A DNA stretch of 64,000 bases from Oerskovia enterophila (GTDB taxonomy: Bacteria > Actinomycetota > Actinomycetes > Actinomycetales > Cellulomonadaceae): NCBI RefSeq assembly GCF_001692445.1, contig NZ_MAQA01000009.1:1-64000 (forward strand), in the 5' to 3' direction. The notes beneath the pieces were generated by a model. That model searched no databases, was not told the DNA's origin, and worked only from the letters and a program-made list of their open reading frames with translations. The first letter of the stretch is position 1; each line of letters opens with the position of its first letter. Made by a program: the position numbers and the translations under genes. Below, piece after piece: positions 2 through 32,147 of this stretch.

Positions 2-115
2 ACCAGCACCCCCACGTCCCCGGCCCCCCTCGACCAGTCGTCAGAAGCACACCGGGCCATACCCCGGCCCAGCTCTGACAACCCATCCCCCACAGAAGGC
101 AGGAACCTCCCGTGA
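2..115 (+). CDS. C-terminal end of an unidentified upstream gene (partial)
   Basis: An open frame enters from the left edge and stops with TGA at 113-115. That stop overlaps the GTG start of hemB (GTGA), the commonest junction in this genome. The visible part is a Thr/Pro/Ser-rich tail followed by 19 residues encoded by a PR1 palindrome ([17 protein letters not shown] and so on). They are in the same frame as the PR1 peptides in copA, scoB and accA1. In many actinobacteria the gene before hemB is another haem gene (hemC or hemD), so this may be its tail. The body is outside the window, so the function is not shown. The alternative is that this is an intergenic leader. Confidence 0.5.
32..88 (+). 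repeat. PR1 palindromic element, copy 1
   Basis: Imperfect palindrome with TGTCAGA-like and TCTGACAA arms around a CCGGG...CCCGG core. The arm CGTCAGA at 39-45 pairs with TCTGACAA at 74-81. It matches the other four PR1 copies (4270, 6514, 25564, 32071). It lies inside the open frame that ends at 115 and is read in the canonical PR1 frame. Confidence 0.85.
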
Positions 116-1110
116 TCCGTCCCCGCCGCCTGCGCTCGACCCCGCAGATGCGCCGGCTCGTCGCCGAGACCCGGCTGCACGCCGCCGACCTCGTGCTCCC
201 CCTGTTCATCAAGGAGGGCCTGACGGCGCCCAAGCCGCTCGGGTCCATGCCGGGCATCGTGCAGCACACCGAGGCGAGCCTCGCCGAGGCCGTCGCACAG
301 GCCACCGCGGCCGGGGTCGGCGGCGTCATGCTGTTCGGCATCCCCGAGCACCGCGACGCGACCGGCTCGCAGGCCGACGCCCCCGACGGGATCCTCAACC
401 GGGCCGTCCGCATCGCGCGCGACGCCGCCCGGGACGCCGCCGCGGGCACGGGCCGACCGGGACCGGTCGTCATGGCCGACCTGTGCCTCGACGAGTTCAC
501 CGACCACGGGCACTGCGGGGTCCTGACGACCGGCCCGGACGGCGACCTGGTCGTGGACAACGACGCGACCCTCGTCCGCTACGCCTCGATGGCCCGCGCG
601 CTCGCCGAGGCGGGCGCGGAGGTCGTGGCGCCGTCGGGCATGATGGACGGCCAGGTCGCCGTGATCCGCGAGGCCCTCGACGACGCCGGGCACGCGGGCG
701 TGAGCATCCTGGCGTACAGCGCCAAGTACGCGAGCGCGTTCTACGGTCCGTTCCGCGAGGCCGTCGACTCGACGCTCCAGGGCGACCGCCGCACCTACCA
801 GATGGACTCCGCGAACTTCCGCCAGGGCCTGCGCGAGGCCGACCTCGACCTGGCCGAGGGCGCCGACATGGTCATGGTCAAGCCCGCGGGCTCGTACCTC
901 GACGTGCTCGCGGCCGTGGCCGAGCGCAGCGACGTCCCCGTCGCCGCCTACCAGGTCTCGGGCGAGTACGCGATGATCGAGGCCGCGGCCGCGAACGGCT
1001 GGATCGACCGGCGCGGCGCCGTCCTGGAGTCCGTGCTCGGCATCAAGCGCGCGGGCGCCGACATCATCCTGACCTACTGGGCCCTCGAGATCGCAGAATG
1101 GATTCGGTGA
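112..1110 (+). CDS. hemB: delta-aminolevulinic acid dehydratase (porphobilinogen synthase)
   Basis: Condenses two 5-aminolevulinate molecules to porphobilinogen in the cytosol, an early step of haem synthesis. The 332-residue length is normal for the family. The two active-site lysines are visible: K205 in [12 protein letters not shown] and K257 in [10 protein letters not shown]. The metal-site stretch is [14 protein letters not shown] (residues 123-136). It keeps C125 and C135 but has Asp at 127 where zinc enzymes of the CxC type have Cys, so the site is of mixed type. The GTG start follows AGGCAGGAA and overlaps the stop of the upstream frame. hemL follows with a short overlap, so the two are co-transcribed. 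Confidence 0.95.
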
Positions 1111-2486
1111 CACCGATGACGATCCACCCCGCCGGCTCCCCGGCGCACGCGACCACCCTCCACGACAACCACGAGGCGTTCGTGCGCGCCCAGGGCGCGA
1201 TCCCCGGCGGCGTGAACTCGCCCGTGCGGGCCTACGGCTCGGTCGGCGGCGACCCGCGGTTCATCGCGAGCGCGCGTGGCGCGTACGTCACCGACGTCAC
1301 GGGCCGCGAGTACGTGGACCTCGTGTGCTCGTGGGGTCCCGCGCTCCTGGGCCACGCGCACCCAGCAGTCGTCGCGGCCGTGCAGGACGCCGCTGCGCGC
1401 GGACTGTCGTTCGGCGCCCCGACGCTGGGCGAGGTCGACCTCGCGGAGGAGGTCCGCCGTCGGGTCCCCGCCGCCGAGCGCGTCCGCCTGGTCTCGACGG
1501 GCACCGAGGCGACCATGACCGCGGTGCGCCTCGCGCGCGGCTTCACGGGCCGCAACCTGATCATCAAGTTCGCGGGCTGCTACCACGGGCACGTCGACTC
1601 GCTGCTCGCCGAGGCGGGATCGGGCGTCGCGACGCTCGCGCTGCCCGGCTCGGCCGGCGTGACCGAGGCCAGCGCGGCCGAGACCCTCGTGCTGCCCTAC
1701 AACGACCTCGACGCCGTCGAGCGCGCGTTCACCGAGCGCGGCTCGGAGATCGCCGCGGTCATCACCGAGGCAGCCCCGGCGAACATGGGGATCGTCCCGC
1801 CGGCCCCCGGCTACAACGAGGGCCTGCGCCGCATCACGTCCGCGCACGGCGCGCTGCTGATCCTCGACGAGGTCCTCACGGGCTTCCGCGTGGGTCCGAG
1901 CGGCTGGTGGGGCCTGGAGTCGGGCATGGTCGCGGGCGCCCTCCCCGAGTACACACCCGACCTCTTCACGTTCGGCAAGGTCATCGGCGGCGGCATGCCC
2001 GTCGCGGCACTGGGCGGACCGGCCTCGATCATGGACCAGCTCGCGCCGCTCGGCCCGGTCTACCAGGCGGGCACGCTCTCGGGGAACCCGGTCGCGGTCG
2101 CGGCGGGCCTCGCGACGCTGCGCCTGGCCGACGCCGCCGCGTACGCGCGCGTCGACCACGTCGCGCAGGTCGTGGGGGACGCCGCGAGCGCGGCCCTCGC
2201 TGCCGAGGGTGTCGCGCACCGCCTGCAGCGCTCGGGCAACCTGTTCTCGATCATGTTCGGCGACTTCGCCGCCGCGGCCGGGGTCCGCAACTACGCCCAG
2301 GCGCAGGCCCAGGACGCGTTCCGCTACAAGGCGTTCTTCCACGCGATGCTCGACGCCGGGGTCAACCTGCCGCCGTCGGTCTTCGAGGCGTGGTTCGTGT
2401 CGTCGGCGCACGACGACGCCGCGGTCGAGCGCATCCTCGCAGCGCTCCCGGACGGAGCGAAGGCCGCGGCGCGAGCCACGGCCTGA
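1098..2486 (+). CDS. hemL: glutamate-1-semialdehyde 2,1-aminomutase
   Basis: PLP enzyme that converts glutamate-1-semialdehyde to 5-aminolevulinate, the substrate of HemB, in the C5 pathway. Family hallmarks are [19 protein letters not shown] near the N-terminus, the PLP lysine in [12 protein letters not shown] (about K294), and [13 protein letters not shown]. Length is about 462 residues, slightly long for the family because of the N-terminus. Three in-frame starts are possible. ATG 1098 has GAGA 8 bases upstream and overlaps hemB by 13 bases. GTG 1107 overlaps the hemB stop as GTGA. ATG 1116 lies just after the stop. I list the longest. The gene ends before a strong hairpin. Confidence 0.94.
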
Positions 2487-2529
2487 GCCCTGCACACCCG
2501 GCCCGGGCGCGGGGTGAGGGGGCCTGGTG

Positions 2530-2581
2530 GGTGAGCGGCGCCGTCGGGCACCTTCCTCCGTGCCCGACGGCGCCGCTCACC
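2530..2581. terminator. bidirectional hairpin terminator between hemL and the HdeD-like gene
   Basis: Perfect 22-base inverted repeat (2530-2551 and 2560-2581) around an 8-base loop. It lies between the converging ends of hemL and the HdeD-like gene. There is no T-tract, as is common in high-GC actinobacteria. Confidence 0.8.
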
Positions 2582-2659
2582 TCACGCCCTGCCGCGCCGT
2601 GGTGCACGGCGCGGCAGGCGGCCCCGCCGGTCGAGGGGCGCTCGACCGACGCTGGCCGG

Positions 2660-3247
2660 TCAGTAGGTGACCTGACCGGCCTTCTTGCCGAGGCTGCGGA
2701 TCTGGAAGCCGAACGCGATGAGCGAGATGCCCCACACGAGGGCCACGATCGCGAGGATCCAGACGATCGACACGACACCCGCGCCGACGTTGAAGAGCAC
2801 GAGCAGACCGAACACGAGCGACAGCAGGCCCGCGAAGACTCCCCAGCCCCAGCCGCTGCCGGGGACCTTGCGCAGCTCGATGCTCGCGATCGCCTGGAAG
2901 ATCCCGAGGACCACGGCCCACAGACCCACGATCCACACGAGGACCTCGGCGGTCTTGCCGGGCCACACGAGCAGCACGATGCCGACCGCGACGCTCACGA
3001 GGCCGACCGTGACGAGCGCTGCGGTGCCGCCGGTCCCCCGGCGACGGATGCCCTCGACGATCTCGAACAGGCCGTCGACGAGCGTGAAGATCGCGACGAT
3101 CCAGATGAAGACGACGGCCGTGATCTCCGGCCACGCGAGCGCGACGATGCCGAAGAGGATCGCGATCACGCCGCGGATCACGGGCCAGTACCAGACTTGC
3201 TTGGCGGCGGAGGAGAAGGCTGTGAGGATCGGGTCCTGCGTTGTCAT
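2660..3247 (-). CDS. HdeD family integral membrane protein
   Basis: A 195-residue protein made of six hydrophobic helices arranged as three pairs, with the family's repeated pattern of a helix followed by W-(A)-W-P-E and an Ile/Val-rich helix (for example ALAWPEITAVVFIWIVAIF). HdeD proteins are known from E. coli acid resistance, but most actinobacterial homologues have no proven role. The start ATG at 3247 is preceded by AGGAG at good spacing. It stands alone, convergent with hemL and divergent from csoR. A second, longer HdeD-like protein is at 20088. Confidence 0.85.
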   Translation of the reverse strand: MTTQDPILTAFSSAAKQVWYWPVIRGVIAILFGIVALAWPEITAVVFIWIVAIFTLVDGLFEIVEGIRRRGTGGTAALVTVGLVSVAVGIVLLVWPGKTAEVLVWIVGLWAVVLGIFQAIASIELRKVPGSGWGWGVFAGLLSLVFGLLVLFNVGAGVVSIVWILAIVALVWGISLIAFGFQIRSLGKKAGQVTY

Positions 3248-3434
3248 GGTGGGCTCCTGACGTCGGGTCGAGTCCCGCCAGGAACGCTGGAGCACCGTCC
3301 GTGCGGGCTGTTCGGTTCTCATCGAACACCCGAAACGGCACGATGTCGTGGCGAACGTCGCATTCGTCGCAGAGGGCGGGCTGCGCGTGCGCGGCCGGGG
3401 GGGCACGGGCTGCCTGCGCGGGACCTTCGGCCCC

Positions 3435-3491
3435 TTGACAAGGGGATACCCCTCCCGGGTACCTTGGAGGGTGGTACCCAGTAGGGGTATC
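3435..3491 (+). promoter_or_regulatory. csoR promoter region with two inverted CsoR-operator-like sites
   Basis: TTGACA at 3435-3440 is a perfect -35 hexamer. Two 19-base imperfect palindromes follow: GATACCCCTCCCGGGTACC at 3445-3463 and GGTACCCAGTAGGGGTATC at 3473-3491. The second, read on the other strand, matches the first at 17 of 19 bases, so they are the same site in opposite orientation, with centres 28 bases apart. TACCC(N4-5)GGGTA-type sites fit known CsoR operators. Autorepression of csoR-copZ-copA relieved by Cu(I) is the likely role. Confidence 0.75.
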
Positions 3492-3517
3492 TGCGAGAGC
3501 GAACACGGAGGCCCCGC

Positions 3518-3859
3518 ATGAGCGACACGACCACCCAGCACCCGGTCGAGCCGGGTCTTGCCCCTGCCCACACCGGCCCGCACGGATACGCCTCCGACAA
3601 GGAGGCCTACCTCAAGCGCATGCGCCGCATCGAGGGTCAGGTCCGCGGGATCGCCCGCATGATCGACGAGGACGTCTACTGCATCGACATCCTCACCCAG
3701 GTCTCCGCGGTGACCAAGGCCCTCCAGGCGGTGTCCATCGGACTCGTCGAGGACCACCTCGGCCACTGCGTCGTCGACGCCGCCCGGTCCTCCGAGGCCG
3801 AGGGCGCCGCCAAGGTCCGCGAGGCGTCCGAGGCCATCGCCCGACTCGTCCGCAGCTGA
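3518..3859 (+). CDS. csoR: copper-sensing transcriptional repressor CsoR
   Basis: All-helical DUF156-family repressor that releases DNA when it binds Cu(I). The Cu(I) ligand set of the family is present: C55 (DVYCIDIL), H80 and C84 (VEDHLGHC). The DNA-contact helix RMRRIEGQVRGI is also intact (residues 34-45). The length of 113 residues is typical, with about 25 extra disordered residues at the N-terminus. A good Shine-Dalgarno (GGAGG) precedes the ATG. copZ starts 26 bases downstream, so the pair is one transcript controlled by the twin sites upstream. Confidence 0.95.
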   Translation: MSDTTTQHPVEPGLAPAHTGPHGYASDKEAYLKRMRRIEGQVRGIARMIDEDVYCIDILTQVSAVTKALQAVSIGLVEDHLGHCVVDAARSSEAEGAAKVREASEAIARLVRS

Positions 3860-3885
3860 CACCCACCCCCTCTCAAGGAGCACCC

Positions 3886-4254
3886 ATGAGCACCGTCACC
3901 ACCCTCGGCGTCACCGGCATGACCTGTGGCAACTGCGTCTCGCACGTGACCAAGGACGTCGGCGCGGTCGCCGGCGTCGAGAACATCAGCGTGGACCTGA
4001 ACGTCGGCGGGGCCTCCGAGGTCACCGTGTTCTCGGACGACCCGCTCGACGAGGCCGCGCTGCGCGAGGCCGTGGACGAGGCCGGCTACGAGGTCACGAG
4101 CTACGAGGTCCAGCTCGACGCCCAGGCTGCGCAGTCGGCCGAGCAGGCCGCGGACCGCAAGGCGCACAACTGCGGCTGCGGCTGCGGCACGGACTCCGCG
4201 GCGGACGCGGCCCCGGCCGTGAAGACGTACGACCTCCAGGTCCCCCAGGCCTGA
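3886..4254 (+). CDS. copZ: heavy-metal-associated domain protein, CopZ-like copper chaperone
   Basis: Cytosolic copper carrier that would hand Cu(I) to the CopA ATPase. Residues 5-70 form one HMA domain with the metal site GMTCGNC (C14, C17). The tail is unusual: after an Ala/Gln-rich helix it carries HNCGCGCG (C96, C98, C100), a second possible soft-metal site that ordinary 68-residue CopZ proteins lack. A Shine-Dalgarno AAGGAG precedes the ATG. It sits between csoR and copA. A PR1 palindrome and a GC hairpin separate it from copA and may lower read-through. Confidence 0.9.
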   Translation: MSTVTTLGVTGMTCGNCVSHVTKDVGAVAGVENISVDLNVGGASEVTVFSDDPLDEAALREAVDEAGYEVTSYEVQLDAQAAQSAEQAADRKAHNCGCGCGTDSAADAAPAVKTYDLQVPQA

Positions 4255-4269
4255 CGCTCCCGGTCGCGA

Positions 4270-4329
4270 CGGATCAGTTGTCAGAACCACGCCGGTCCAT
4301 GCACCGGCCACGTTCTGACAACTGATCCG
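4270..4329. repeat. PR1 palindromic element, copy 2 (intergenic)
   Basis: The most perfect PR1 copy. An 18-base arm (4270-4287) pairs exactly with 4312-4329. A second stem, GCCGGT with ACCGGC, sits inside. It lies 15 bases after the copZ stop and, unlike four other copies, is in no reading frame. In the canonical PR1 frame it carries a TGA at its right end. It may serve as an attenuator between copZ and copA. Confidence 0.9.
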
Positions 4330-4390
4330 CGCAGTGGGCTTCAGCGCCCGTGAGGCCCCAGCCCCACGCACGCCCTGACCGCTCGACCCG

Positions 4391-4440
4391 CCCGACGACG
4401 GAGCACCGGCCGGGCGCCCGGCCCACGCTCCGCCGTCGGG
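4391..4440 (+). terminator. strong GC hairpin between copZ and copA
   Basis: Two stacked stems. CCCGACGACGGAGC (4391-4404) pairs with 4427-4440 with one mismatch, and GCCGGGC pairs with GCCCGGC inside. Together with the PR1 copy, it is the main content of the 378-base gap between copZ and copA. The rest of that gap shows no gene. It could terminate or attenuate the csoR-copZ transcript. Confidence 0.5.
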
Positions 4441-4632
4441 CACCGCTCCACCCGCATGCCGCGTGCCGACGCCTCGGCCACGCCGCCCGCTGGACCGACG
4501 GTCGCACACCGTGACCCGCGACAGCTCGTGGAGCGCCCCCACCGTCCTCCGCCCGCGAACAGCGGGCCCGCGACGGAGAACCCCACCCGGCGAGACCCGC
4601 CGGACGCATCACCGGACCTCCCAGGAGCAACC

Positions 4633-7473
4633 ATGACCACCCCCACCGGCCTGACCGCTGGCCCCACGTTCGTCGAGGTCGACCTCGCGATCGAGGGCAT
4701 GACGTGCGCGTCGTGCGTCGCGCGCGTCGAGAAGCGGCTCAACCGCGTCGACGGCGCCCAGGCCACCGTGAACCTGCCGCTCGAGAGCGCGCACGTCGTG
4801 CTGCCCGACGGCGTGACCGACGCCGAGCTCGTCGCAGCGGTCGAGAAGGCGGGCTACCAGGCGCGGGTCACGGGACGGCGCGTCGCCGCGTCAGCGGTTG
4901 CCGCGAAGGCGGCTGCTGCGGCGCCCGTCGCTGAGCCTGTGGCGCCCACCGGCGGCGTGGTGACGGGCGCTCGTGCTGCCGGGGCCGGGGTTGGTGTCGG
5001 CGTCGCGACTCCCGCAGCCGGGACCTCGACGCCCGCCGCGGCCGAGTCCGCACCGGCGAGCCCCTCGGTTCGCCCGATGTCCGACGCGGCCCCGGCCGCG
5101 ACCGACACCTCGGCCCCCACGCGCGACCGCGGCGCCGACCTCGCCCGACGACTCAAGGTCGCCGCGGTCCTCACGCTGCCCGTCGTGCTGCTGTCGATGA
5201 TCCCGGCGCTGCAGTTCCCGGGCTGGCAGTGGGTCGTCACGGCCCTCGCGCTGCCGGTCGTGACGTGGGGCGCGTGGCCCTTCCACACCGCTGCCTTCCG
5301 TGCGGCCCGCCACGGCGCCTCGACCATGGACACGCTCGTGTCGATCGGCGTGATCGCCGCGACCCTGTGGTCGCTGTGGGCGCTGCTGCTGGGCGGCGCG
5401 GGAGAGATCGGCATGCAGATGCAGGTCTCGCTGCTGCCGTCGCGGGAGCATGCCGCGATGCCCGAGCTCTACTTCGAGGTCGCGGCCGTCGTCACGACGT
5501 TCCTCCTCGCGGGCCGCTGGTCCGAGCACCGCTCGCGCCGCAAGGCCGGCGACGCGCTGCGCTCGCTCCTCGCGATGGGCGCCAAGGACGCCGAGCGCGT
5601 CACGACCGGGCCCGACGGTCAGCGCGTGACCGAGCGCGTGCCCGTCACCGCCCTGCGCGAGGGCGACCTGTTCACGGTCCGCCCGGGCGAGAAGATCGCG
5701 ACCGACGGCGTCGTGGTCGAGGGCAGCTCCGCCGTCGACACCTCTCTCCTGACGGGCGAGCCCGTGCCCGTCGACGTGACGCCGGGCGACGACGTCACCG
5801 GCGCGACCGTCAACACCTCGGGCCACCTGCTCGTCCGTGCGACGCGCGTCGGCGAGGAGACGACGCTCGCGCAGATCGGTCGCCTCGTGAGCCAGGCGCA
5901 GACGGGCAAGGCTCCCGTGCAGCGCCTCGCGGACCGGATCTCGGCCGTGTTCGTGCCGATCGTCCTCGTCCTGGCCGTGCTCACCCTGGGTGGCTGGCTG
6001 CTCGCGGGGGCGAGCACGCAGTTCGCGTTCACGGCGGCCGTGGCCGTGCTCATCATCGCGTGCCCGTGCGCCCTGGGGCTCGCGACGCCGACGGCCCTGC
6101 TCGTCGGGACGGGCCGCGGCGCGCAGCTCGGCATCCTCATCAAGGGCCCCGAGGTCCTCGAGTCCACGCGCCGCGTCGAGGTGATCGTGCTCGACAAGAC
6201 CGGCACCGTGACGCAGGGGCGCATGGCCCTCGAGCGTGTGGTCACGCGCGACGGCGAGCTCGACCTGTCGTCGGAGCCGGCGCGGGCTGCTGCTGGTTCG
6301 TCGAGCGAGGGACCCGACGGCGCCGCTCACCACGCCCTGCGCCTCGCCGGCGCTGTCGAAGGGTTGAGCGAGCACCCGATCGCGCAGGCCGTCGCGGCTG
6401 CCGCGGCGCGGGTCGCGGGGGTCGGACCGGGGTCGGCTGCTCCTGAGGTGCCTGCCGGTGCTGGCGGCACCGTCGCAGAGCAGGTCGGGACAGCGGCTCT
6501 CGCGGCCTCCCCCGATCAGGTGTCAGAAGTACACCGGGCTATCCCCCGGCCCAGCTCTGACAACTCGTCCGTGGCGGGGGTCGAGACCGGGGGTGTCGAG
6601 ACCGGGGCCGACGGCGTCGTGATCGGCTCCGCGCAGGTCTTCGACTTCGTGAGCTCTCCCGGTGGCGGGGTCAGCGGCCTGGTCCGCACCGCGCACTCGG
6701 GCCTGTCCCCCGCGGGAGCGCTCAACGCGCAGCGGGTCCTGGTCGGACGCCCGTCGTGGCTCGCCGAGCAGGGCATCACGTTCGACGCCTCGGAGCCCTC
6801 GAGCCCCGAGGACGAGGCTCGCCCCGGCACCGCGGGGACCGACCTGCGCCGCGCGTTCGACGAGGCCGAGTCCACGGGCGCGACCGCCGTCGTCGTCGCC
6901 TGGAACGGCACCGCCCAGGGCGTCCTGGTCCTGCGCGACCCGGTCAAGGAGACCTCGGCCCAGGCCGTGGCCGAGCTCCGCGAGCTGGGCCTGCGCCCCC
7001 TCCTCCTCACGGGCGACAACGCGGGCGCGGCGCGGGTCGCCGCCCGGCAGGTCGGCATCGCGGAGGAGGACGTGATCGCGCAGGTCCTGCCGCAGGACAA
7101 GGTCGACGTCGTCGCACGCCTGCGCGCCGAAGGTCGGGTCGTCGCGATGGTCGGGGACGGCGTGAACGACGCCGCAGCACTGGCCGGCGCTGACCTGGGG
7201 CTGGCCATGGGCACGGGCACCGACGTCGCGATCGAGGCGAGCGACATCACGCTGGTCCGCGGCGACCTGCGCTCGGCCGCGACGGCGATCCGGCTCTCGC
7301 GCCAGACGTTGCGCATCATCAAGCAGAACCTCTTCTGGGCCTTCGCCTACAACGTGGCGGCGATCCCGCTCGCGGCGGCGGGCCTGCTCAACCCGATGAT
7401 CGCGGGGGCGGCGATGGCCATGAGCTCGGTGCTCGTCGTCGGGAACTCGCTGCGGCTGCGCTCGGCGGGCTGA
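4633..7473 (+). CDS. copA: copper-translocating P1B-type ATPase
   Basis: Membrane pump that exports Cu(I) with ATP. Order of parts: N-terminal HMA domain with GMTCASC (C25, C28), a long Ala/Pro/Thr linker (about residues 75-165), eight transmembrane helices, the transport motif CPC (477-479), phosphorylation site DKTGT (D521), the nucleotide-domain SEHP motif (H581), and GDGVNDA (841-847). At 946 residues it is long for CopA (usually 700-830). The surplus is the linker plus about 100 extra residues in the nucleotide-binding domain, which include a PR1 insertion at residues 628-646 and a GVETG duplication. Start ATG follows AGGAG. Confidence 0.95.
6514..6570 (+). repeat. PR1 palindromic element, copy 3 (inside copA)
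   Basis: A 57-base copy lying wholly within copA and keeping the frame. It encodes [19 protein letters not shown], in the nucleotide-binding domain between the SEHP motif and the GRPSW segment, where CopA proteins normally have a short loop. Its codon phase is the same as in the scoB, accA1 and upstream-of-hemB copies. Confidence 0.9.
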
Positions 7474-7520
7474 GCACGGGCCTGCGCGGGCGGGGTTCTG
7501 CGCGGGCGGGGTTTGCCGGG

Positions 7521-7605
7521 GTGCCGAGAACGAGGTTCCGCGCAGTCGAGAACGGGGTTGCGGTCGCTATCCACCGGATAACGACCGCAACCCCGTTCTC
7601 GGCAC
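7521..7605. repeat. PR2 palindromic element, copy 1 (85 bp)
   Basis: The inner arms are perfect: CGAGAACGGGGTTGCGGTCG (7547-7566) pairs with 7582-7601, with TATCC/GGATA at the tip. A partial duplicate of the left arm (GTGCCGAGAACGAGGTT) lies in front. The same 85-base layout recurs at 8374, and a shorter version is at 28587. It sits between the converging ends of copA and the next gene and could act as a bidirectional terminator. Confidence 0.85.
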
Positions 7606-7635
7606 CTGGAGAGGGCTCGACGGTGCCGGTCAGGA

Positions 7636-8169: not shown

Positions 8170-8373
8170 GGGTTCCACCTCTCGTCGTGGCGGTCCGGCG
8201 ACCACCGCCTGGGAACAGTAGCGGCCATGGACCCAGGGCTCAACGGGGAGGACTGCCCATCGGTCGGCACCGACCGCGTGCCCGGCCGATCAGCACGTGC
8301 GAGCTGGAGAAGCGTGGCGGTGCTCGGCGGACCGAGGAGAAGAGGTCCCTCGCTCAGTCGGTGGTCGTTCGTC

Positions 8374-13072: not shown

Positions 13073-13996
13073 ACCACTCCTCCCGGCACTCCCCCCGGCT
13101 CTGGCGCCGAGCCAGCAGCACCGACCGGCACGCCGCGCGAGCCCGGAGCAGCGGGGGTCGGTGTGGCACCCACAGGCGAGGCCGGGGGCGGGAAGCGGTC
13201 GCGCTGGGCCCCCACGACGGCCGACCGCCCCGAGACCCGCCGCCGCATCGGGGCCGAGATCTGGATCCTGCTGGGACTGAGCCTCGGCCGGTCCGGGGTC
13301 TACGCGGTCGTTAACATCGTCGCGCGCCTCACCGAGGGCACCCCGCTCGCCCAGCAGAGCGCGAGCCTCAACAACAGCCAGTCGCCCCGCCCGTACCTCG
13401 ACCTGACCTACCAGATCCTCAGCATCGGGTTCGCGCTCATCCCGGTCGCGCTCGCGCTCTACCTGCTCTCGGCGCGCGGTCGGTCGGTCACGCGGGCGAT
13501 CGGGCTCGACGGCAGCCGGCCGTGGCGCGACACGGGCTGGGGCGTCGCGCTCGCCGCGGTCATCGGCATCCCGGGCCTGGGGCTGTACGTCGCCGGGCGT
13601 GCCCTCGGGATCACGGTCGAGGTCAACCCGGCCAACCTCGCGGACTACTGGTGGACCGTGCCGATCCTGATCCTCGCGGCCCTCCAGAACGGCCTGCTCG
13701 AGGAGGTCATCGCGGTCGCGTACCTGTTCGAGCGCACCAAGGACCTGGGCTGGGGACGCGTGAAGTTCGTCGTGTGGAGCTCGCTGCTGCGCGGCTCGTA
13801 CCACCTGTACCAGGGCATCGGGCCGTTCGTCGGGAACGTGGTCATGGGCGTCGTGTTCTCGTGGTTCTACACGAGCAGGTGGGGGCGGCACCGGGTGGTC
13901 CCGCTCGTGATCGCCCACACGATCCTCGACGTGGTCGCGTTCGTGGGCTACGCCCTGCTGCCGCGCGAGTGGCTCGAGGCGCTGGGCGTCGGATAG
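13070..13996 (+). CDS. CPBP family intramembrane metalloprotease
   Basis: Eight-helix membrane protein of the CAAX protease / bacteriocin-processing (Abi) family. The hallmark residues are present: LLEEVIAVAYLFER (the EExxxxR motif has a longer spacing here), then RGSYHLYQG with the active-site His, and the last His in LVIAHTILD. The first 55 residues are Pro/Gly/Ala-rich and likely cytoplasmic. GTG 13070 is chosen because of the leaderless -10 element. An upstream ATG at 13001 would be in frame but has no signals. Substrates of this family in actinobacteria are unknown. A strong hairpin follows. Confidence 0.85.
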   Translation: MTTPPGTPPGSGAEPAAPTGTPREPGAAGVGVAPTGEAGGGKRSRWAPTTADRPETRRRIGAEIWILLGLSLGRSGVYAVVNIVARLTEGTPLAQQSASLNNSQSPRPYLDLTYQILSIGFALIPVALALYLLSARGRSVTRAIGLDGSRPWRDTGWGVALAAVIGIPGLGLYVAGRALGITVEVNPANLADYWWTVPILILAALQNGLLEEVIAVAYLFERTKDLGWGRVKFVVWSSLLRGSYHLYQGIGPFVGNVVMGVVFSWFYTSRWGRHRVVPLVIAHTILDVVAFVGYALLPREWLEALGVG

Positions 13997-24158: not shown

Positions 24159-24189
24159 CGCGCGAGCTCCCGCAGCCGCTCCGGATCAC

Positions 24190-25350
24190 CTAGCCCTGCA
24201 GCACCACCGCCGACCCCTGTCCCCCGCCGCCGCACAGCGCGGCCGCCCCCACGGCGTCGCCGCCGAGAGCCGCGAGCCGCCGCGCCAGGTGACCGACGAT
24301 GCGCGCGCCCGACGCCCCGATGGGGTGCCCGAGCGCGATGGCTCCGCCGTTGGCGTCGACGATCGCGGGGTCGACGCCCAACAGGTCCGTCGACGCGAGG
24401 GCCACGACCGCGAACGCCTCGTTGATCTCGATCGCGGACAGCTCCCCGACCTCGAGACCCGCCCGGGCGCTGGCCGCGCGGATCGCGTTCGCGGGCTGCG
24501 CGTGCAGCGAGACGTCGGGCCCCGCCACGAGCGCATGACCCAGGATGCGGGCGCCGGTCAGTCCGCGCCGCTCCGCCTCCTCGTCGCTCACGAGCACGAG
24601 CGCCGCGGCGCCGTCGGAGATCTGCGAGGCGTTCCCGGCCGTGATGGTGCCGTCCTCGCGGAAGGCGGGACGCAGCCGCGCCAGGACCTCGGCCGTGGTG
24701 TCGACGCGCACGCCGTCGTCGGCCTCGACCAGGCGCCCGCCCCGCCCGGGCGTCTGGAACGGCGCGATCTCGCCCCGCAGGAAGTCGGCCGCCGCGGCTG
24801 CCCGCGCGTGCGACGACGCCGCGAACGCGTCCTGGGCCGCTCTGCTGATCCCGAGCCCCTCGCCGTGGCGCTCGGTGCTGAGCCCCATCGAGTCCCGCTC
24901 GAACGCGTCGCGCAGCCCGTCGTGCGCGAGCGTGTCCACGAGGGTCACGTCGCCGAGCTTCCGGCCCGCCCGCGACCCGACCCACGCGTGCGGTGCGAGG
25001 CTCATGGACTCCTGCCCCACGGCCACGACGACCTGGGCCTCGCCCGCGGTGATGAGCCGGTGCGCCTGCACCACGGCCTCCATGCCGGACAAGCACACCG
25101 CGTTGAGCGTCATCGCGGGCACCGAGTACGGCACGCCCGCGCCGACGGCGGCCTGCCGTGCCGGGTTCTGACCGGCCCCGCCCTGGAGCACCTGTCCGGC
25201 GAGGACGAGCTCGACGTCGTCGGGCACCAGTCCTGCGTCCGCGAGCGCCGCGCCCAGCGCGTGCGCCCCGAGCGTCGCGGCGGGCACGGTCGCGAAGGCG
25301 CCGTTGAAACGCACGAAGGGGGTGCGCGCGTACCCCACGATGACGGTCAT
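24190..25350 (-). CDS. acetyl-CoA C-acetyltransferase (thiolase)
   Basis: Cleaves acetoacetyl-CoA to two acetyl-CoA, the last step of leucine breakdown. The nucleophile Cys is in [10 protein letters not shown] (about C89), and the other active-site signatures [18 protein letters not shown] and CGGGGQGSA are intact. The length of 386 residues is normal. The ATG overlaps the scoB stop by four bases. It is the last of an 11-gene operon, so acetoacetate released by the CitE-like lyase would be activated by ScoAB and cleaved here. It runs convergent to the UPF0104 gene. Confidence 0.94.
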
Positions 25351-26204
25351 GCTTCCTCCTGGTGTCCTGGGCGGGTCTGGGTGCGGGTGGTCGCCCCGGC
25401 CGCGGGCCGCGGTTCCTCCAGCCCGACGGCGTAGCTCGCCTCGGTCGCGTCGCGCACCTCGTCGAGGGTCACGCCGGGCGCGACGGCGCGGAGCACGAGG
25501 CCGCGGCGCGAGGCCCCGGGTGCTGCCGGTACTGCACCGGTCCCAGCTCCGAGACCCGCCCCCGATGAGTTGTCAGAAGGTGGCCGGGGAATACCCCGGC
25601 CACGTTCTGACAACGAGTCCGTGGCGGTCGGGACCCCGGGGGATGCGGGCGGCGCGAGGTCGACGACGTCGAAGACCGCGCGGTCCGTGATGATCCGGTC
25701 CACCACGGCCTGCCCCGTGAGCGGCAGCCCGCACACGTGCCGGAGCTTGGGTGACCCGTCGCGCGCCACGTGGTCCATGAGGACGACGATGCGCGGCGTG
25801 CCCGCGACGAGGTCCATGGCCCCGCCCATGCCCTTGACGAGCTTCCCGGGCACGGTCCAGTTGGCGAGGTCGCCCGTCTCGGACACCTCGAGCGCACCGA
25901 GGATCGCGATGTCGACGTGCCCGCCCCGGATCATGGCGAACGACGTCGCGGAGTCGAAGTAGCTCGCGCCCGGCAGCGCCGTGACGGTCTGCTTGCCGGC
26001 GTTGATGAGGTCGGCGTCCTCCTCGCCGTCGAGCGGGAACGGCCCGATCCCCAGCATCCCGTTCTCGCTCTGCAGCGTGATCGAGACTCCGGGCGGCAGG
26101 TGGTTCGCGACGAGCGTGGGGATGCCGATCCCGAGGTTCACGTAGTCGCCGTCGTGCAGCTCGGCCGCGGCGATCGCGGCCATCTGGTCCCGGTCCCAGG
26201 GCAT
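25347..26204 (-). CDS. scoB: 3-oxoacid CoA-transferase subunit B, with PR1 insertion
   Basis: Moves CoA from succinyl-CoA to acetoacetate together with ScoA. The catalytic glutamate lies in [14 protein letters not shown] and the N-terminus [14 protein letters not shown] is typical. It has 285 residues, where ScoB proteins usually have about 215. The extra residues form one block of about 50 between VFDVV and [17 protein letters not shown]. The block contains a PR1 palindrome read as [20 protein letters not shown], then a Gly/Ala stretch. The C-terminal tail is also extended. The ATG at 26204 follows AGGAGG, one base after the scoA stop. Confidence 0.92.
25564..25620 (-). repeat. PR1 palindromic element, copy 4 (inside scoB)
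   Basis: A 57-base element within scoB. Sense reading gives [17 protein letters not shown]. The antisense strand in the matching phase gives [17 protein letters not shown], nearly the same peptide. The core GGCCGGGG-AATA-CCCCGGCC is a nearly perfect stem. Confidence 0.9.
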
Positions 26205-26205
26205 G

Positions 26206-27078
26206 TCAGGCCTCCTTTCCTGCGGCGGGCACCGGGGCGGCGGCCTCGGCACCCGTGCTCGGTCCCGCGCCGTCCCCGCCCGCCGCGGGCGCGGCAGCCC
26301 CCGGCGCCGCCCCGCGAGCCCGCACGGTGCGCTGCTCGATGTCCTTGACCCGCGGCCGCGCGGGCACGAGCCGGTCGACGAAGATCCCGGGCGTGACCAC
26401 GACGTCGGGATCGAGGGGCTCGTCGGCCAGGATCTCGGCCTCGACCACCGTGACGCGGCCGGCCGTCGCGACGAGCGGGTTGAAGTTGCGCGCCGTGAAC
26501 CGGTAGGTGAGGTTGCCGTAGGCGTCGGCCCGGTGCGCGTGCACCAGGGCGAGGTCGGCGACGATGCCGCGCTCGAGGACGTAGCGACACCCGTCGAACT
26601 CCTCGACGGGCTTGCCCTCCGCGACCGGTGTCCCGACGCCCGTGGCCGTGTAGAACGCGGGGATGCCTGCTCCGCCGGCGCGCAGGCGCTCGGCGAGCGT
26701 GCCCTGCGGCACGAACTCGACCTCGAGGTCGCCGTCGAGGTACCGCTGCGCGAACAGCTTGTTCTCCCCCACGTAGGAGGACAGGACCTTGTCGACCTGG
26801 TCGCTCTCGAGCAGCAGCCCGAGCCCCTTGCCGTCGACGCCCATGTTGTTGGACACCACGGTCAGACCCCGCACGCCCGAGTCACGCACGGCCTCGATGA
26901 GGTCGGCCGGGATGCCGCACAGCCCGAACCCGCCCACGGCGATCGTCATCCCGTCGCGCAGCAGCCCGTCGAGGGCGGTGGCCGCGTCGGGGTAGCCCTT
27001 GGCGCCCTGCGGGTCGCTCCTCGCGTCGCGTCGGGCCGGGGCGTCGTCGCTCACCGGCCGGGTTCCGTCGGTCGTCAT
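26206..27078 (-). CDS. scoA: 3-oxoacid CoA-transferase subunit A
   Basis: Partner of ScoB in acetoacetate activation with succinyl-CoA. The [13 protein letters not shown] and [16 protein letters not shown] segments are family signatures. The core ends near [20 protein letters not shown]. It carries a 35-residue Ala/Gly/Pro tail and a 27-residue leader, so 290 residues in place of about 235. The ATG overlaps the CitE-like gene stop by four bases. In M. tuberculosis the same pair (Rv2503c-Rv2504c) sits at the other end of the homologous cluster, so the operon has been rearranged. Confidence 0.93.
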
Positions 27079-28001: not shown

Positions 28002-28549
28002 GAGGGGTCGCCCTCCTGCCCGACGGCGTCACGCGCCCCCGCGCCCGGCCCACCCTCCGTGGTGGTCGCGACGGCCGTCTCGTGCGCGGCGCGCGTCCAC
28101 ACGAGCGTCGACCGCACGGCCCGGGCCACGAGCACGCCGTCCTGGTTGTGCCCGCGGTGCTCGAACGTCACGACGCCCTGCCCGGGCCGCGAGGCGGAGG
28201 GCCGCTTCTCGAGCACCACGGTCGAGGAGTACAGGGTGTCGCCGTGGAACACCGGGTGCGGGAACGCGACCTCGGCGAACCCGAGGTTGGCGACGATCGT
28301 GCCCTGCGTGAGCTGCGCGACCGAGGCCCCGACGAGCGTCGAGAGCGTGAGCATCGAGTTCACGAGGCGCTGCCCGAACGGCTGGGTCGCGGCCCACGCG
28401 GCGTCGAGGTGGAGCGACTGGGTGTTCATGGTCAGCGTCGTGAACAGGACGTTGTCGGCCTCGGTCAGCGTGCGCCCCGGGCGGTGGACGTAGCGGACCT
28501 CGGTCTCGAGCTCGTCGTAGTAGAGCCCGCGCTGCTCGATCTCCCGCAT
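27998..28549 (-). CDS. MaoC-like hydratase/dehydratase
   Basis: Hot-dog fold enoyl-CoA hydratase of the MaoC class, 183 residues. N-terminal RGLYYDELETEVRYVHRPGRTLTEADNVLFTTLTMN carries the expected start, and the hydratase segment is FPHPVFHGDTLYSSTVV. In the related mycobacterial cluster this enzyme hydrates 3-methylglutaconyl-CoA to the (R)-isomer used by the CitE-like lyase. The ATG follows AAGGAG. A 104-base gap with a PR2 palindrome separates it from the acyl-CoA dehydrogenase gene, the only sizeable gap in the operon. Confidence 0.9.
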   Translation of the reverse strand: MREIEQRGLYYDELETEVRYVHRPGRTLTEADNVLFTTLTMNTQSLHLDAAWAATQPFGQRLVNSMLTLSTLVGASVAQLTQGTIVANLGFAEVAFPHPVFHGDTLYSSTVVLEKRPSASRPGQGVVTFEHRGHNQDGVLVARAVRSTLVWTRAAHETAVATTTEGGPGAGARDAVGQEGDPS

Positions 28550-28586
28550 CCTGCGCTCCTTCCTGCTGGTCTGATGTGTGTCCCAG

Positions 28587-28645
28587 GTGCCGAGAACGAG
28601 GTTGCGGTCGTTCTGGCCGGCATACCGACCACGACCTCGTTCTCG
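28587..28645. repeat. PR2 palindromic element, copy 3 (short form)
   Basis: GTGCCGAGAACGAGGTTGCG starts the left arm. The right arm (28626-28645, ending CTCGTTCTCG) pairs with two mismatches. It lacks the duplicated left arm seen in the two 85-base copies. It is the only insertion between genes inside the 11-gene operon and may attenuate the distal genes. Confidence 0.8.
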
Positions 28646-28653
28646 ACCGCGGC

Positions 28654-29838
28654 TCAGGCCGTGAGCCCCAGCCCGCGCGCGATGATCATGAGCTGCACCT
28701 CGGTCGTCCCCTCCCCGATCTCGAGCACCTTGGAGTCCCGGTAGTGGCGGGCCACGGGGTTCTCGTTGAGGAACCCGTAGCCGCCGAAGATCTGCGAGGC
28801 GTCGCGCGCGTTGGCCATGGCCGCCTCGCTGCCCACGAGCTTCGCGATCGACGCCTCGACCTTGAACGGCGCGTCGTTCGCGAGCTTCGACGCCGCGTCG
28901 TAGTAGCAGAGCCGTGCCTGGTGGACGCGGGCCGCCATGCGCGAGAGCGTGAACGCGATGTGCTGGTTCGAGCCGATGTCGCGGCCGAACACGTTGCGCG
29001 TCCGCGCGTACCGCAGCGCCTCCTCCAAGCACCCTTGGGCAGCCCCCGTGGCGAGCGCCGCGAACGCGACGCGGCCCTCGTCGAGCACGCGCAGGAAGTT
29101 CGCGTACCCGCGCCCCTGCTCGCCCAGCAGGTTCGCCTCGGGGACCCGGACGTCCTCGAAGGTCAGCGGGTGGGTGTCGGACGTGTGCCACCCGACCTTG
29201 TCGTACGCCGGCCCGACCGTGAACCCCTTCGTCCCCGACGGCACGAGGATGCTCGACAGCTCCTTCTTCACGGTCCCGTCGGCCCGGGTCTCCTCGCCCG
29301 TGACCGCGGTGACGGTGACGACGCTCGTGATGGGCGTCCCGGAGTTGGTGATGAACTGCTTGCTGCCGTCGATGACCCACACCCCGGCGCCGCCGTCGGG
29401 CCCGGTCTCGATCTGTGCCGTCGTGCGCGTCGCGCCCGCGTCGGAGCCCGCCTCGGCCTCGGTCAGCCCGAACGCCGCGAGAGCCCGTCCCGTGACCAGG
29501 TCCGGCAACCACCGCTCGCGCTGCGCGGCGGTCCCGTGCCGGACGATCGGCATGATGCCGAGCCCGACGCCGGCCTCGAGCGTGACCGCGATGCTCTGGT
29601 CGACGCGCGCGAGCGCCTCGACCGCGAGGCACAGCGAGAGGTAGTCCTTGCCCTGGCCGCCGTGCTCGACGGCGAAGGGCAGGCCGAACAGCCCCAGGTC
29701 GCCCATCTCGCGGATGATGTCGAGCGGCAGGCGGCGCTCGGTGTCGTACGTGTACGCCGCGGGCGCGACGACGGTGTCCGCGAACTCGCGCACGGTGTCG
29801 CTGAGCTTGCGCTGCTCGTCGGTGAGCTCGGTGTTCAT
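28654..29838 (-). CDS. acyl-CoA dehydrogenase (isovaleryl-CoA type, FadE19-like)
   Basis: FAD enzyme that would oxidise isovaleryl-CoA to 3-methylcrotonyl-CoA, feeding the carboxylase encoded upstream. The FAD/substrate motif [17 protein letters not shown] and the second signature [34 protein letters not shown] are complete. The segment [13 protein letters not shown] binds FAD. It has 394 residues, the usual size. The ATG overlaps the accA1 stop by four bases. Position equals that of fadE19 (Rv2500c) in the M. tuberculosis cluster. The substrate is inferred from this context. Confidence 0.93.
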
Positions 29839-32147
29839 GGCGCTCCTGGGGTGTGGGAGGGGACGGGGACGGCCGGGGTACCGGCCTGGGTGGGGACGTG
29901 CGAGGGCGGCGTGACCACCGCGGGGGCAGGCCCGTCCGCCGGGGCGGGAGACACGTCGTCGGGCACCTGGTCGACGCGCGCGACCACCTCGTCGCGGCGC
30001 ACCAGGTCTCCCGGGCGGATCGTGAGCCGCACGACGCCCGCGTGCGGGGCCCTCAGCGCGTGCTCCATCTTCATGGCCTCGACCGTGACGAGGACCGCGC
30101 CCGCGGCGACGGTCTCGCCGTCCGCGACCGCGACCGTCACGACCGTGCCGGGCATGCCCGCGCGGACGTCGGGGCTCGTGAGAACGTCGGCGCCGTCGGC
30201 GTAGGCACCGCGGGCGGCGGCGCGGAGGGCGAGGAGCTCGGCGCGCGTCGGGACCGCGACCTGGACCACCCGGCCCTCGCGCGCGAGCCACACGCTCGCG
30301 TCCGTGTGGTCGGCCGCCAGGTCCACGGTCTCTCCCACCCCGTCCACGACGTAGCGCCACGCGTGCGCGCTCCCCGCGACGGGGGTCAGCGCGGCCCGCC
30401 GGGCTGCCCCCGGCCGTGGGTCCCCGTCCACGTGCACGACGGCGTCGCTCGCCTCTCCCGTCACGGTCACCTCGCGGGGTGCACGCGTCGGGGTCGTCGT
30501 GCCGGGCGCCGTGTCGACCAGGGTGACCCTGCGTGGGCGCGGCGCGGCGTTGAGACGCCAGCCGTCGTCTGAACCCCACGGGCCGGTGGCGTGCGGCGTC
30601 GCGCCCCGGGAGCCGGGAGCGCGCGCCCCTAGCGAGAACAGCGCGACGGCCACGAGGTCGTCCTCGGTCGCGGTCCCCGGGGGCACTCCCCCGGCCGCCA
30701 CGAACCGCTCGATCAGCCCCGTGTCGAGGTCGCCGGACCGGACGTCCGGGTCCCCGAGGAGCGCCCGCAGGAAGCCGATGTTGGTGTCGACCCCCAGGAC
30801 GAGCGTCTCCGCGAGCAGGCGGTCGAGCCGGTCGAGCGCCTGGGCGCGGTCGGCGCCGTGCGCGACGGCCTTCGCGAGCAGCGGGTCGTAGTCGCCCCCG
30901 ACGCGGAGCCCCTCGGTGAGGCTGCTGTCGAGACGCCACCCCTCGCCGTCGGGCTCGGTGAGCGCGAGGACCTCGCCCGTCGCGGGCAGGAACCCGCGGG
31001 CCGGGGACTCCGCGTAGACGCGGGCCTCGATCGCGTGGCCCCGCAGGACGACGTCCTCCTGCGCGAACCCCAGCGCCTCCCCCGCCGCGACGCGCAGCTG
31101 GGCCTCGACCAGGTCGAGGCCCGTGACCATCTCGGTCACGGGGTGCTCGACCTGCAGGCGCGTGTTCATCTCGATGAAGAAGAACGTGGTCGGGTCGTCG
31201 GCGGGCACGAGGAACTCGACCGTCCCGGCGCCCTCGTAGTCCACGCTGCGCGCGACCTCGCACGCGGCGGCACCGATCCGGGCACGGGTCGCAGCGTCGA
31301 GCAGCGGCGACGGCGCCTCCTCGACCACCTTCTGGTGACGGCGCTGGAGGGAGCACTCGCGCTCCCCCAGGTGCACGACGGCGCCGCGCGAGTCCGCGAG
31401 CACCTGCACCTCGATGTGGCGCGGCCGGGCGACCAGGCGCTCGACGAGCAGCGTGCCGTCGCCGAACGACCGGGTCGCGACGCGTCGGGCGCTCGCGAGC
31501 GCAGCCGGGAGGTCGTCGGCCGACGTCACGACCTGCATGCCCTTGCCGCCGCCCCCCGCCGAGGGCTTGACCAGCAGCGGGAAGCCGACGTCGCGCGCGG
31601 CCCGCGCGAGCGCCTCGTCGTCGAGCGCTCGGCCCGTCACGGGGTCGCGGCCCGTGCTGCCCGGCACGACTGGGACCCCGCGCGCCGCGACGATCTCCTT
31701 GGCCGTGATCTTGTCGGCCATGGCCTCGAGCGCCGCGACGCTCGGCCCGACGAACACGATGCCCGCGTCCGCGCAGGCCCGCGCGAGCTCGGGGTTCTCC
31801 GACAGGAAGCCGTAGCCGGGGTGGACCGCGTCGGCGCCCGTCGCGCGGGCCGCGTCGATGATCGCGGGCACGCTCAGGTACGACTCGGTCGCGGGGGCCG
31901 GGCCGATCCGCACCGCGACGTCGGCGAGGGACACGTGGCGCGCGCCGGCGTCGGCGTCGCTGTGGACCGCGACCGACCGGATGCCGAGGCGCCGCAGCGT
32001 GGCGATGGTGCGGCACGCGATCTCGCCGCGGTTGGCGACGAGGACCGTGCCGAAGGGGCGCCGCCCCGCGGACGAGTTGTCAGAGCTGGGCCGGGGCATA
32101 CCCCGGCTCGCTTCTGACAACTGGTCGGTGGTGTGCTGCGGGAGCAT
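29835..32147 (-). CDS. accA1: acyl-CoA carboxylase alpha chain (biotin carboxylase + biotin carrier), PR1 at N-terminus
   Basis: Carboxylates biotin for the AccD1 partner; 3-methylcrotonyl-CoA is the likely substrate. The biotin carboxylase core starts [16 protein letters not shown] and contains the ATP-grasp segment [11 protein letters not shown]. The C-terminal carrier has the biotin lysine in EAMKMEHAL (about K693), then a Pro/Ala tail. 770 residues. Normally the protein starts right at the [10 protein letters not shown] strand. Here 33 residues precede it, of which 8-26 come from a PR1 element. No start codon exists between the element and the core, so translation must pass through it. 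A GTG at 32156 overlapping the accD1 stop is an alternative start. Confidence 0.94.
32071..32127 (-). repeat. PR1 palindromic element, copy 5 (5' end of accA1)
   Basis: A 57-base copy covering accA1 codons 8-26, read [19 protein letters not shown]. The arms AGTTGTCAGA and TCTGACAACT are complementary, with a GCCGGGG/CCCCGGC core. It begins 20 bases after the accA1 ATG. Confidence 0.9.

Follow-up and report, generated by a model that had tools for sequence, protein, structure and literature searches.

A window of 64,000 nucleotides from Oerskovia enterophila (Cellulomonadaceae; the genome that holds it is labelled G000) raises the question of why one palindrome should recur in frame inside conserved genes of an actinobacterium. 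Rickettsia is the best-known source of protein-coding palindromes; such elements were reportedly described there by Ogata et al. in 2000 and 2002. An earlier note on this DNA had proposed five copies, and all five are present where it placed them (Table 1), so that the observation of in-frame palindromic elements in the window is confirmed. Among the titles and abstracts that our searches of open-licence papers listed, we found no earlier report of coding palindromes in actinobacteria.

We searched the 4.65-Mb genome with the pattern TTGTCAGA-N28-TCTGACAA, allowing up to 3 mismatches, and obtained 88 sites. The reversed pattern, used as a control, gave 1, which rules out a chance origin. Alignment of 18 copies revealed a single palindrome, whose arms pair with each other at both ends and have 28 nt between them. 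The core unit measures 44 nt, and the full palindrome, with outer arms GGATNAG, is ∼58 nt rather than the 57 bases first proposed. The previously described TGTCAGA/TCTGACA arms hold in general, but the copy at 32-88 has CGTCAGA in place of TGTCAGA; likewise, the CCGGGG..CCCCGG core is right as to its CCGG ends, but its inner letters vary and in G000 it is CCGG-N8-CCGG. These inner letters differ widely among copies of one genome, and the middle 6-mers of the inner stem are perfectly complementary in 14/70 copies, as compared with 2.6 when halves are paired at random. The length itself had been taken as a means of keeping the reading frame. However, the inner part is 28 nt in 183/187 exact-arm pairs (a set largely picked by the N28 pattern), outside genes as well as within them, and a genome-wide search for exact arms found none separated by 30-45 nt. 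Stretches from G011, where 22-35 nt was allowed, likewise gave 28 nt in 14/14 copies. A length that is just as constant outside genes is not explained by the reading frame.

Table 1. Coordinates of the element copies and associated features in the window
Feature	Position	Strand	Remarks
Element copy 1	32..88		Phase 0, hemD C-terminus; G002 element at the same place
hemD frame end	2..115	+	TGA 113-115 overlaps hemB start GTG 112-114
hemB frame, 332 aa	112..1110	+	Gene call, putative name; downstream of copy 1
Element copy 2	4270..4329		Intergenic
Decayed stretch aligning with G002 AGCG-type element	4338..4381		60 bp from copy 2
Element copy 3	6514..6570		In copA, phase 0
copA, heavy-metal P-type ATPase, 946 aa	4633..7473	+	Pfam (longer frame 4456-7473); host of copy 3
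Element copy 4	25564..25620		In scoB, behind CoA-transferase domain, phase 0
scoB, CoA-transferase subunit, 285 aa	25347..26204	-	Pfam (longer frame 25347-26252), gene call; host of copy 4
Element copy 5	32071..32127		N-terminal in accA1, phase 0; compared with G001-G006
accA1, biotin carboxylase	29835..32147	-	Pfam, start-site comparison; host of copy 5

The assignment of three copies wholly to copA, scoB and accA1 was borne out. A fourth had been said to lie in an open frame at hemB; that frame, whose TGA overlaps the hemB GTG, is the end of hemD, as identified by sequence comparison with G002 and C73. The remaining copy is intergenic: a stop codon precedes its 44-nt core by 23 bp, and 311 bp separate the end of the core from the called copA start. 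Our home-made gene caller had put the accA1 start inside copy 5. This was overturned by comparison with relatives and by an ATG at 32147, 5 bp beyond the stop codon that ends the upstream carboxyltransferase gene (32153-33829); the start codon is ATG in 5/6 relatives and GTG in G003. Orthologue alignment shows copy 3 to occupy a variable loop of CopA, in its haloacid-dehalogenase-like stretch; an AlphaFold prediction of this protein (seven sequences; mean pLDDT 37.6) was too poor for use. When the solved HrpA (9ggr) is aligned, it has one residue where Oerskovia HrpA has 44, element included. Conserved domains surround the copies, in agreement with the earlier view that host domains are intact. 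Judging from the sequences, the in-frame element would add a short, probably flexible peptide to these conserved enzymes.

The claim that copies inside genes always keep one codon phase held well beyond the window. Across the stretches sampled from eight genomes, seven of them Oerskovia and one from another genus, 78/78 wholly intragenic copies are in phase 0, as are 9/9 partly intragenic ones; the 78 fall in 50 host genes, counted per genome, with orthologous copies in different genomes counted separately. Genes were called with the home-made caller, whose codon score was poorer for phase 0 than for phase 1 in 4/4 genomes tested. The caller therefore does not favour phase 0, and we could rule out caller bias as the source of the pattern. 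The earlier note had named a majority of copies outside genes as a result that would count against it, and on this point its reading as first worded is not supported: 48/70 are intergenic in G000 and 138/225 over eight genomes sampled around element sites, a tally that includes at least one truly intragenic copy (32-88), scored as intergenic because the contig begins there. In G002, phase 0 is open in 23/23 intragenic copies in the sense direction, in 10/23 on the antisense strand of the same copies and in 39/90 for intergenic copies, whereas phase 1 is open in 89/90 intergenic readings. Since phase 1 is nearly always open and phase 0 liable to stops, the frame actually used is the stop-prone one, and frame-neutral insertion is ruled out. 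Phase 0 readings of intergenic copies have a mean hydropathy of -0.75 to -1.20 and 0.03-0.29 cysteines per reading, as compared with -0.04 to -0.27 and 1.03-1.19 for phase 1. That a stop-prone frame is used and an open one is not makes the case for selection on the inserted peptide uncommonly clear-cut.

Comparison between clades added an observation absent from the earlier note. G002, which belongs to the other Oerskovia clade, has a different, AGCG-type core, and at 5/5 window sites it carries an element with that core in the same loop or spacer, within ∼100 bp; behind the stop codon that precedes copy 2, both G002 and G004 have the other core type. Over 27 corresponding G000/G002 pairs, 25.5/44 letters are shared, a figure unchanged in the 17 pairs that lie no more than 20 bp from where they are expected; the value is 24.9 for random cross pairs, 33.1 among copies within G000 and 35.7 within G002. 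Cores homogenised in place by gene conversion (concerted evolution), with rare new insertions, would be expected to leave corresponding copies no closer than random ones. The common centre of the two core types at putA, narB and hemD/hemB fits such in-place replacement equally, and hybrid-looking copies, for example C43:8986 with 33/44 letters shared with its G002 counterpart, also speak for it. We nevertheless consider gene conversion a very improbable explanation. At hrpA and abcF the centres of the two types are offset by 6-30 bp, the copA copy of G000 is missing from G001 and G006 and sits elsewhere in the gene than that of G002, and the shared arms are only 7-8 bp. Moreover, old-type remnants adjoin new copies: AGCG-type remnants accompany two CCGG copies, at a distance of 60 bp for the one at 4278 (profile score of the remnant -10.8) and of 58 bp for the one at C43:3035, and both remnants score above all 382 control windows (control maximum -19.2). 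Gene conversion as the sole process is contradicted by these two remnants. A clear decayed old-type copy of its own nearby was seen for only 2/70 G000 copies; a supposed further remnant in copA, read from a protein alignment, was dropped when the profile scan did not pick it up. At many of the G000 sites, close relatives have a decayed or empty position, so that the relatives without an insert for which the earlier note had suggested looking do exist.

Neighbouring copies proved to be spaced by 54, 60-64, 72-74, 85, 93-95 and 103-108 bp. The 19 distinct values are periodic at 10.5 bp (R = 0.72, p ∼5e-5), with 114, 133 and 152 bp fitting the helical step poorly. In G000, 9/17 pairs of neighbours less than 500 bp apart share at least 40/44 letters, against 1.2% of far pairs. 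Neighbours in G002 are barely more alike than distant copies (37.1 vs 35.7 of 44), and the spacing there is helical although the spacer sequences are unrelated. This spacing, another addition to the earlier note, is a concrete hint of a protein that acts on the duplex, but it may instead be selected for a function. Selection might, for example, maintain the elements as sites to which a chromosome-organising or regulatory protein binds in cooperative dimers on one helix face, the core having followed a change in the protein's specificity. We regard this as unlikely, though by no means negligible. It would suit the helical spacing across unrelated spacers in G002, the occupation of the same loops and spacers in two clades, and the fact that two genera have identical arms with a 28-nt inner part, even where the copies are not within genes. 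It would suit, too, the position of 41/42 sites of the complete G002 genome (0-1 mismatch, among the sites listed) at 1.0-3.65 Mb, around dnaA at 2.52 Mb; this location of dnaA puts the sites on the origin side, and we rejected the idea that they mark the replication terminus. On the other hand, the binding factor is hypothetical, the inner letters vary widely within a genome, and at many sites close relatives have only a decayed element or none. Copy numbers are also very unequal among species of one genus: with up to 3 mismatches allowed G000 has 88, with up to 2 allowed G001, G002 and G004 have 15, 91 and 77, and G003, G005 and G006 have 3-4 matches each to model R1, which was built on the CCGG core only.

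The position of intergenic copies relative to genes is likewise uneven. Among those having a flanking gene end, 32/40 in G002 and 12/15 in G004 lie within 40 bp of a stop codon, a tendency that is weaker in G000 (18/44) and G011 (4/11), and divergent spacers hold few copies (1/45 in G000 and 4/44 in G002). RNA hairpins at gene ends, serving as terminators or mRNA stabilisers and leaving intragenic copies as by-products, would account for both features. We judge this quite improbable: RNA has no need of helically phased neighbours, the inner stems are often non-complementary (even if perfect middle 6-mers exceed random pairing), no Rfam model reached its gathering score in window positions 1-34000, and a filter acting on insertions would leave the same gene-end positions.

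The reading that we favour, and hold to be probable with some reserve, is that these are REP/RPE-like dispersed palindromes spread by a putative protein acting on double-stranded DNA, and that phase 0 alone survives in genes. A hypothetical protein would bind the palindrome as duplex and place further copies of it elsewhere, frequently next to one already present and on the same helix face, with the consequence that new core types would adjoin old ones; the old-type copies would then decay. Most inserts would persist just downstream of genes. Within genes, selection would remove phase 2, in which a stop is nearly always present, as well as phase 1, with its cysteine-bearing and less hydrophilic peptide, and would keep phase 0 as a hydrophilic, probably disordered linker of 14-19 residues in loops, between domains or at protein ends. 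Mobility is something that we infer rather than see. In its most far-reaching form, that of an actinobacterial intragenomic palindromic replicator with a putative double-strand DNA protein, planting at whole helical turns, a clade-wide core swap and linkers in dozens of enzymes, the proposal is tentative and we would put it forward only as a possibility.

A further possibility is that the elements are REPINs, which are moved by RAYT, a Y1 tyrosine transposase. REPs, according to passages of PMC3733652 and PMC3116915, also present gene-end palindromes, pairs and lineage-specific populations, and a RAYT could have been lost later. We disfavour this possibility and find it hardly probable at all. 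Pfam Y1_Tnp (PF01797) had no match in the window's genome, nor in the 13 family genomes searched (including G000, G002, G004, G008 and G011), whereas 6/14 control genomes were positive. The element also lacks an unpaired GTAG tag, being one palindrome whose TGTC ends are paired. The missing transposase was not part of the earlier note. Carriage by phages or plasmids was also considered and rejected: exact arms occur in 11 IMG/VR stretches, but these, with a GC of 0.32-0.46 and 9-13/22 pairs, look like chance, and one element copy gave no match against plasmid and phage collections.

The actinobacterial set is large and phase-locked, has several core types, occurs in at least two genera and comes with empty sites in sister species. 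Such a set would open two long-standing questions to direct test: whether peptides of this kind persist in functioning proteins, and by what route palindromic repeats spread in genomes that have no RAYT.

Among known systems, the mitochondrial genes of Nematomorpha have perfect inverted repeats of up to 284 bp in coding genes, as the relevant part of PMC6649704 describes. Location within protein-coding genes is common to both, but the Oerskovia elements are a dispersed family with constant arms and those of Nematomorpha belong to animal mitochondria. GTAG REPs and REPINs are closer in that they too are short palindromes near gene ends, occur in pairs and are sometimes intragenic; intragenic REPs are reported in some other bacteria in the passages drawn on from PMC3733652. 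Excerpts of PMC3733652 and PMC3116915 further give preferred distances of 71 and 110 bp for REP pairs in P. fluorescens SBW25, different REPs at about the same recB site in two Xanthomonas species, and REP stems of 6-13 bp. The Oerskovia element has a single stem of ∼20 bp and neighbours stepped by one helical turn, and it falls outside the GTAG REP definition (an unpaired GTAG tag and a 6-13 bp stem, with RAYT in the genome or in relatives). CGTC REPs, which include RPE-4 and RPE-6, are ascribed in the consulted sections of PMC3733652 to five phyla, Actinobacteria not among them. They resemble our elements in ending with CGTC or TGTC followed by A, in having no known transposase and in being intragenic in some cases. 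They differ, on the description in those sections, by a stem of 8-9 bp whose first and second positions are AT, by a CCA-like tail and by a tag that stays unpaired at one end; in the Oerskovia element both TGTC ends pair together (TGTCAG with CTGACA) and the stem continues with AG, which places it outside this class as well. Finally, the Rickettsia elements form ten families, typically of 100-150 bp, in an intracellular alphaproteobacterium (PMC10969869, in part), although PMC3767692 lists one RPE-4 insert as 84 bp; different groups among RPE-4, RPE-6 and RPE-7 lie near each other in orthologues, for which the part of PMC3767692 used here leaves open a hotspot or a common origin. The Oerskovia palindrome measures 44-58 nt and is actinobacterial, and its neighbours are helically spaced, of which the passages on RPE in PMC10969869 and PMC3767692 make no mention. 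Set against these partial RPE descriptions, in which the inserts occupy solvent-exposed places, the Rickettsia-like character first suggested for the window stands as a likeness of behaviour, namely palindromes in frame within several unrelated conserved genes.

Alignment of 18 copies of the palindrome gave an approximate palindromic consensus of 58 nt, GGATNAG TTGTCAGA R N5 CCGG N8 CCGG N5 Y TCTGACAA CTNATCC. Allowing up to 3 arm mismatches, we found 88 sites across G000, the 4.65-Mb Oerskovia genome in which the window is C9:1-64000, versus a single site for the reversed pattern. With a purpose-written codon-usage gene caller we classified 70 of these sites, located in the window or in one of 34 fetched stretches, and scored 48 as intergenic, 20 as wholly and 2 as partly within called genes; these counts miss that the copy at 32-88 belongs to the end of hemD and that accA1 encloses its whole copy. 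The earlier note had stressed the presence of the element inside genes, which is borne out, but most of the classified G000 copies lie outside them. In the complete genome of the Oerskovia relative G002 (contig C1), 41 of the 42 sites with 0-1 mismatch among the matches listed fall at 1.0-3.65 Mb, an interval that includes dnaA at 2.52 Mb.

Locations of element copies and other features
Feature	Location	Context	Observation
Copy at 38	window 32-88	hemD end	no centre offset from G002 element
Copy at 4278	window 4270-4329	intergenic	G002 element aligned to decayed stretch 60 bp away in G000
Copy at 6520	window 6514-6570	copA	offset from G002 3 or 93 bp, by flank chosen
Copy at 25570	window 25564-25620	scoB	offset from G002 59 or 39 bp, by flank chosen
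Copy at 32077	window 32071-32127	accA1	offset from G002 ~6-15 bp
AGCG-type core	L059 near 2977-3020	G000 C43	core well preserved, outer arms damaged; 58 bp from CCGG-type copy
Five-copy array	L168:255-549	G000 C49	62-63 bp units, recurring spacers; several called same-strand genes downstream
One site in three species	L066:4085; L094:15509; L142:656	G000 C73; G002; G001	AGCG-like core retained; G000 copy has 41 of 44 letters as in G002, 35 as in G001
accA1 N-terminus	L143 near 13865-13990	G001	about one and a half in-frame copies vs one in G000
Another repeat, ~60-90 bp	window 7515-7615 and 8378-8459		copies also in several G002 stretches (L094, L081; BLAST)

All intragenic copies of G000 are read in phase 0. 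We extended the count to stretches of eight genomes under a single rule (at most 2 mismatches in the arms and 13 or more of 22 pairs) and obtained 138 intergenic, 78 wholly intragenic and 9 partly intragenic copies, figures that are not genome-wide densities because the stretches were picked around element sites; those of G006 held no copy. Phase 0 was used by 78/78 wholly and 9/9 partly intragenic copies, in 50 host genes (a per-genome count that keeps orthologues apart), so that the single codon phase proposed from the window alone holds throughout these stretches.

Phase 2 carries a stop on both strands, and phases 0 and 1 are usually open. Among intergenic G000 copies, the 44-mer alone was open in 94/96 readings in phase 0 and 75/96 in phase 1, and once 7 nt of sequence was added at either end, in 73/100 and 79/100. 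The sharpest test of phase use is G002, whose core frequently contains TGA in phase 0. There, phase 0 was open in 23/23 sense readings of intragenic copies, 10/23 antisense readings of the same copies and 39/90 intergenic readings, while phase 1, open in 89/90 intergenic readings, is nevertheless unused inside genes. G004 gave the same pattern with smaller numbers (phase 0 open in 9/9 sense, 3/9 antisense and 17/34 intergenic readings; phase 1 in 34/34). In G011, from another genus, neither phase is often closed (29 and 26 of 30 open), and phase 0 was used in 15/15. The gene caller's own scoring placed phase 0 below phase 1 in 4/4 genomes. Translating the intergenic copies gave peptides that in phase 0 are more hydrophilic, contain more disorder-promoting residues and have almost no cysteine, and that in phase 1 contain about one cysteine apiece. 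The simplest account of the phase lock is selection on the encoded peptide.

Host genes of G000 supported by Pfam encode an MFS transporter, two histidine kinases, PutA (proline dehydrogenase/aldehyde dehydrogenase), an NHL-repeat thioredoxin-like protein, a NirB-like pyridine nucleotide-disulphide reductase, a molybdopterin oxidoreductase, CopA, ScoB, AccA1, a cysteine-rich (CCG) protein, an ABC-F-like ATPase and an HrpA-like helicase; an ABC transporter ATPase (three copies), HemD (two on its contig) and CofC are putative names from sequence. The element occupies variable loops, inter-domain stretches or protein ends. In PutA it starts near residue 470, between the proline dehydrogenase domain, which it follows directly, and the aldehyde dehydrogenase domain, and in HrpA its region spans 44 residues versus one in a solved HrpA (9ggr). 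Seven CopA sequences differ only in a few loops, which hold the element peptides; G002 and G004 have three. At one CopA site G000 lacks the palindrome yet retains Ser-Glu-Pro with altered codons; the tripeptide is absent from G001 and G006, so this case says little about peptide retention for its own sake.

The places recur between species. Along 52 kb of continuous orthologous DNA, the loop or spacer that holds each of the five window elements also holds an element in G002, which has 2 further elements in this DNA. For 26 of 31 G000 sites with a mapped position in the fetched G002 stretches, a sample enriched in elements, a G002 element lay in the aligned interval (~500 bp long at contigs C46 and C59), representing ~20 neighbourhoods; 4 had none there, and 4278 was overlooked by that script. 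Element centres coincide in putA and narB. The earlier note had proposed a search for empty sites in orthologues, and these exist: at the accA1 site, G001 has a CCGG-type copy and G002-G004 have AGCG-type copies, the G006 copy is decayed and G005 has no copy. At the other four window sites AGCG copies are present in G002 and G004, and the rest of G001-G006 have a copy that is decayed or shortened, or lack one.

The copies in corresponding places differ. G002 (91 sites) and G004 (77 sites) share the arms of G000 with a core that is mostly AACSAGCGWG, as read among the matches listed for G002 and from fetched stretches for G004; the core is around GACCGTGCGCG in G011 and GAAGCTCCCCGG in Antribacter. 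A four-gene tree (9,585 aligned nt) joined G000, G001 and G006 (support 1.0) separately from G002-G005, with 92-94% identity between the groups. Corresponding G000-G002 copies have 25.5 of 44 letters in common (27 pairs; also 25.5 for the 17 within 20 bp on one side), random cross pairs 24.9, pairs within G000 33.1, within G002 35.7, and G000-G001 counterparts 41.1 (n=9).

Decayed AGCG-type copies beside 4278 and 58 bp from C43:3035 score above all 382 control windows; the latter is also the nearest remnant for C43:3120, and for none of the other copies among the 70 classified in G000 does a remnant score above those windows. Such remnants beside CCGG copies suggest that new copies can land next to old ones.

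Neighbouring copies are also regularly spaced. Exact-arm searches of 39 genomes gave start-to-start spacings of 54, 63, 64, 74, 85, 94, 95, 103 and 108 bp in G000, 62-63, 74 and 105 in G002, 62-63 in G004, and 60-63, 72 and 95 in G011. When each genome contributed a given value a single time and G001 and G004, which have orthologous pairs in common, were omitted, the resulting 19 values gave R = 0.72 at 10.5 bp (p ~5e-5), the best period being 10.7. With G001 included, R for all 46 values was 0.79, matched in 0/20000 uniform draws, and that for the 18 outside 59-65 bp was matched in 2/20000. The fetched stretches also hold spacings of 114, 133 and 152 bp, which fit the helical step less well. 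Spacer sequences look unrelated from one G002 locus to another; the C49 array looks like a tandem duplication and was left out of these statistics as such. Such helical phasing hints at a protein that acts on double-stranded DNA, either as copies spread or as part of some function.

Neighbouring G000 copies are alike and their flanks different. From this, from the frame filter, and from the findings that relatives have decayed copies or none and that old-type remnants lie next to new copies, we propose that a trans-acting protein would recognise the arms at their fixed distance and place copies beside resident ones. Insertion of this kind would account for the spacing, the likeness of G000 neighbours and the recurrence of places, and in-place conversion may contribute in addition. 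RAYT, the Y1 tyrosine transposase of REPs, is unlikely as the mover, with no Y1 transposase match among the genomes searched.

The matches listed from open-licence literature included no actinobacterial case of such elements. By tag, stem and transposase the Oerskovia element falls outside the definitions of GTAG and CGTC REPs. According to PMC3733652, REPs occur within genes in other phyla, and two Xanthomonas species have different REPs at roughly one position in recB. The resemblance to Rickettsia palindromic elements raised in the earlier note stands for behaviour: both are intragenic palindromes, and in Rickettsia too, according to a passage of PMC3767692, different groups lie near each other in orthologues.
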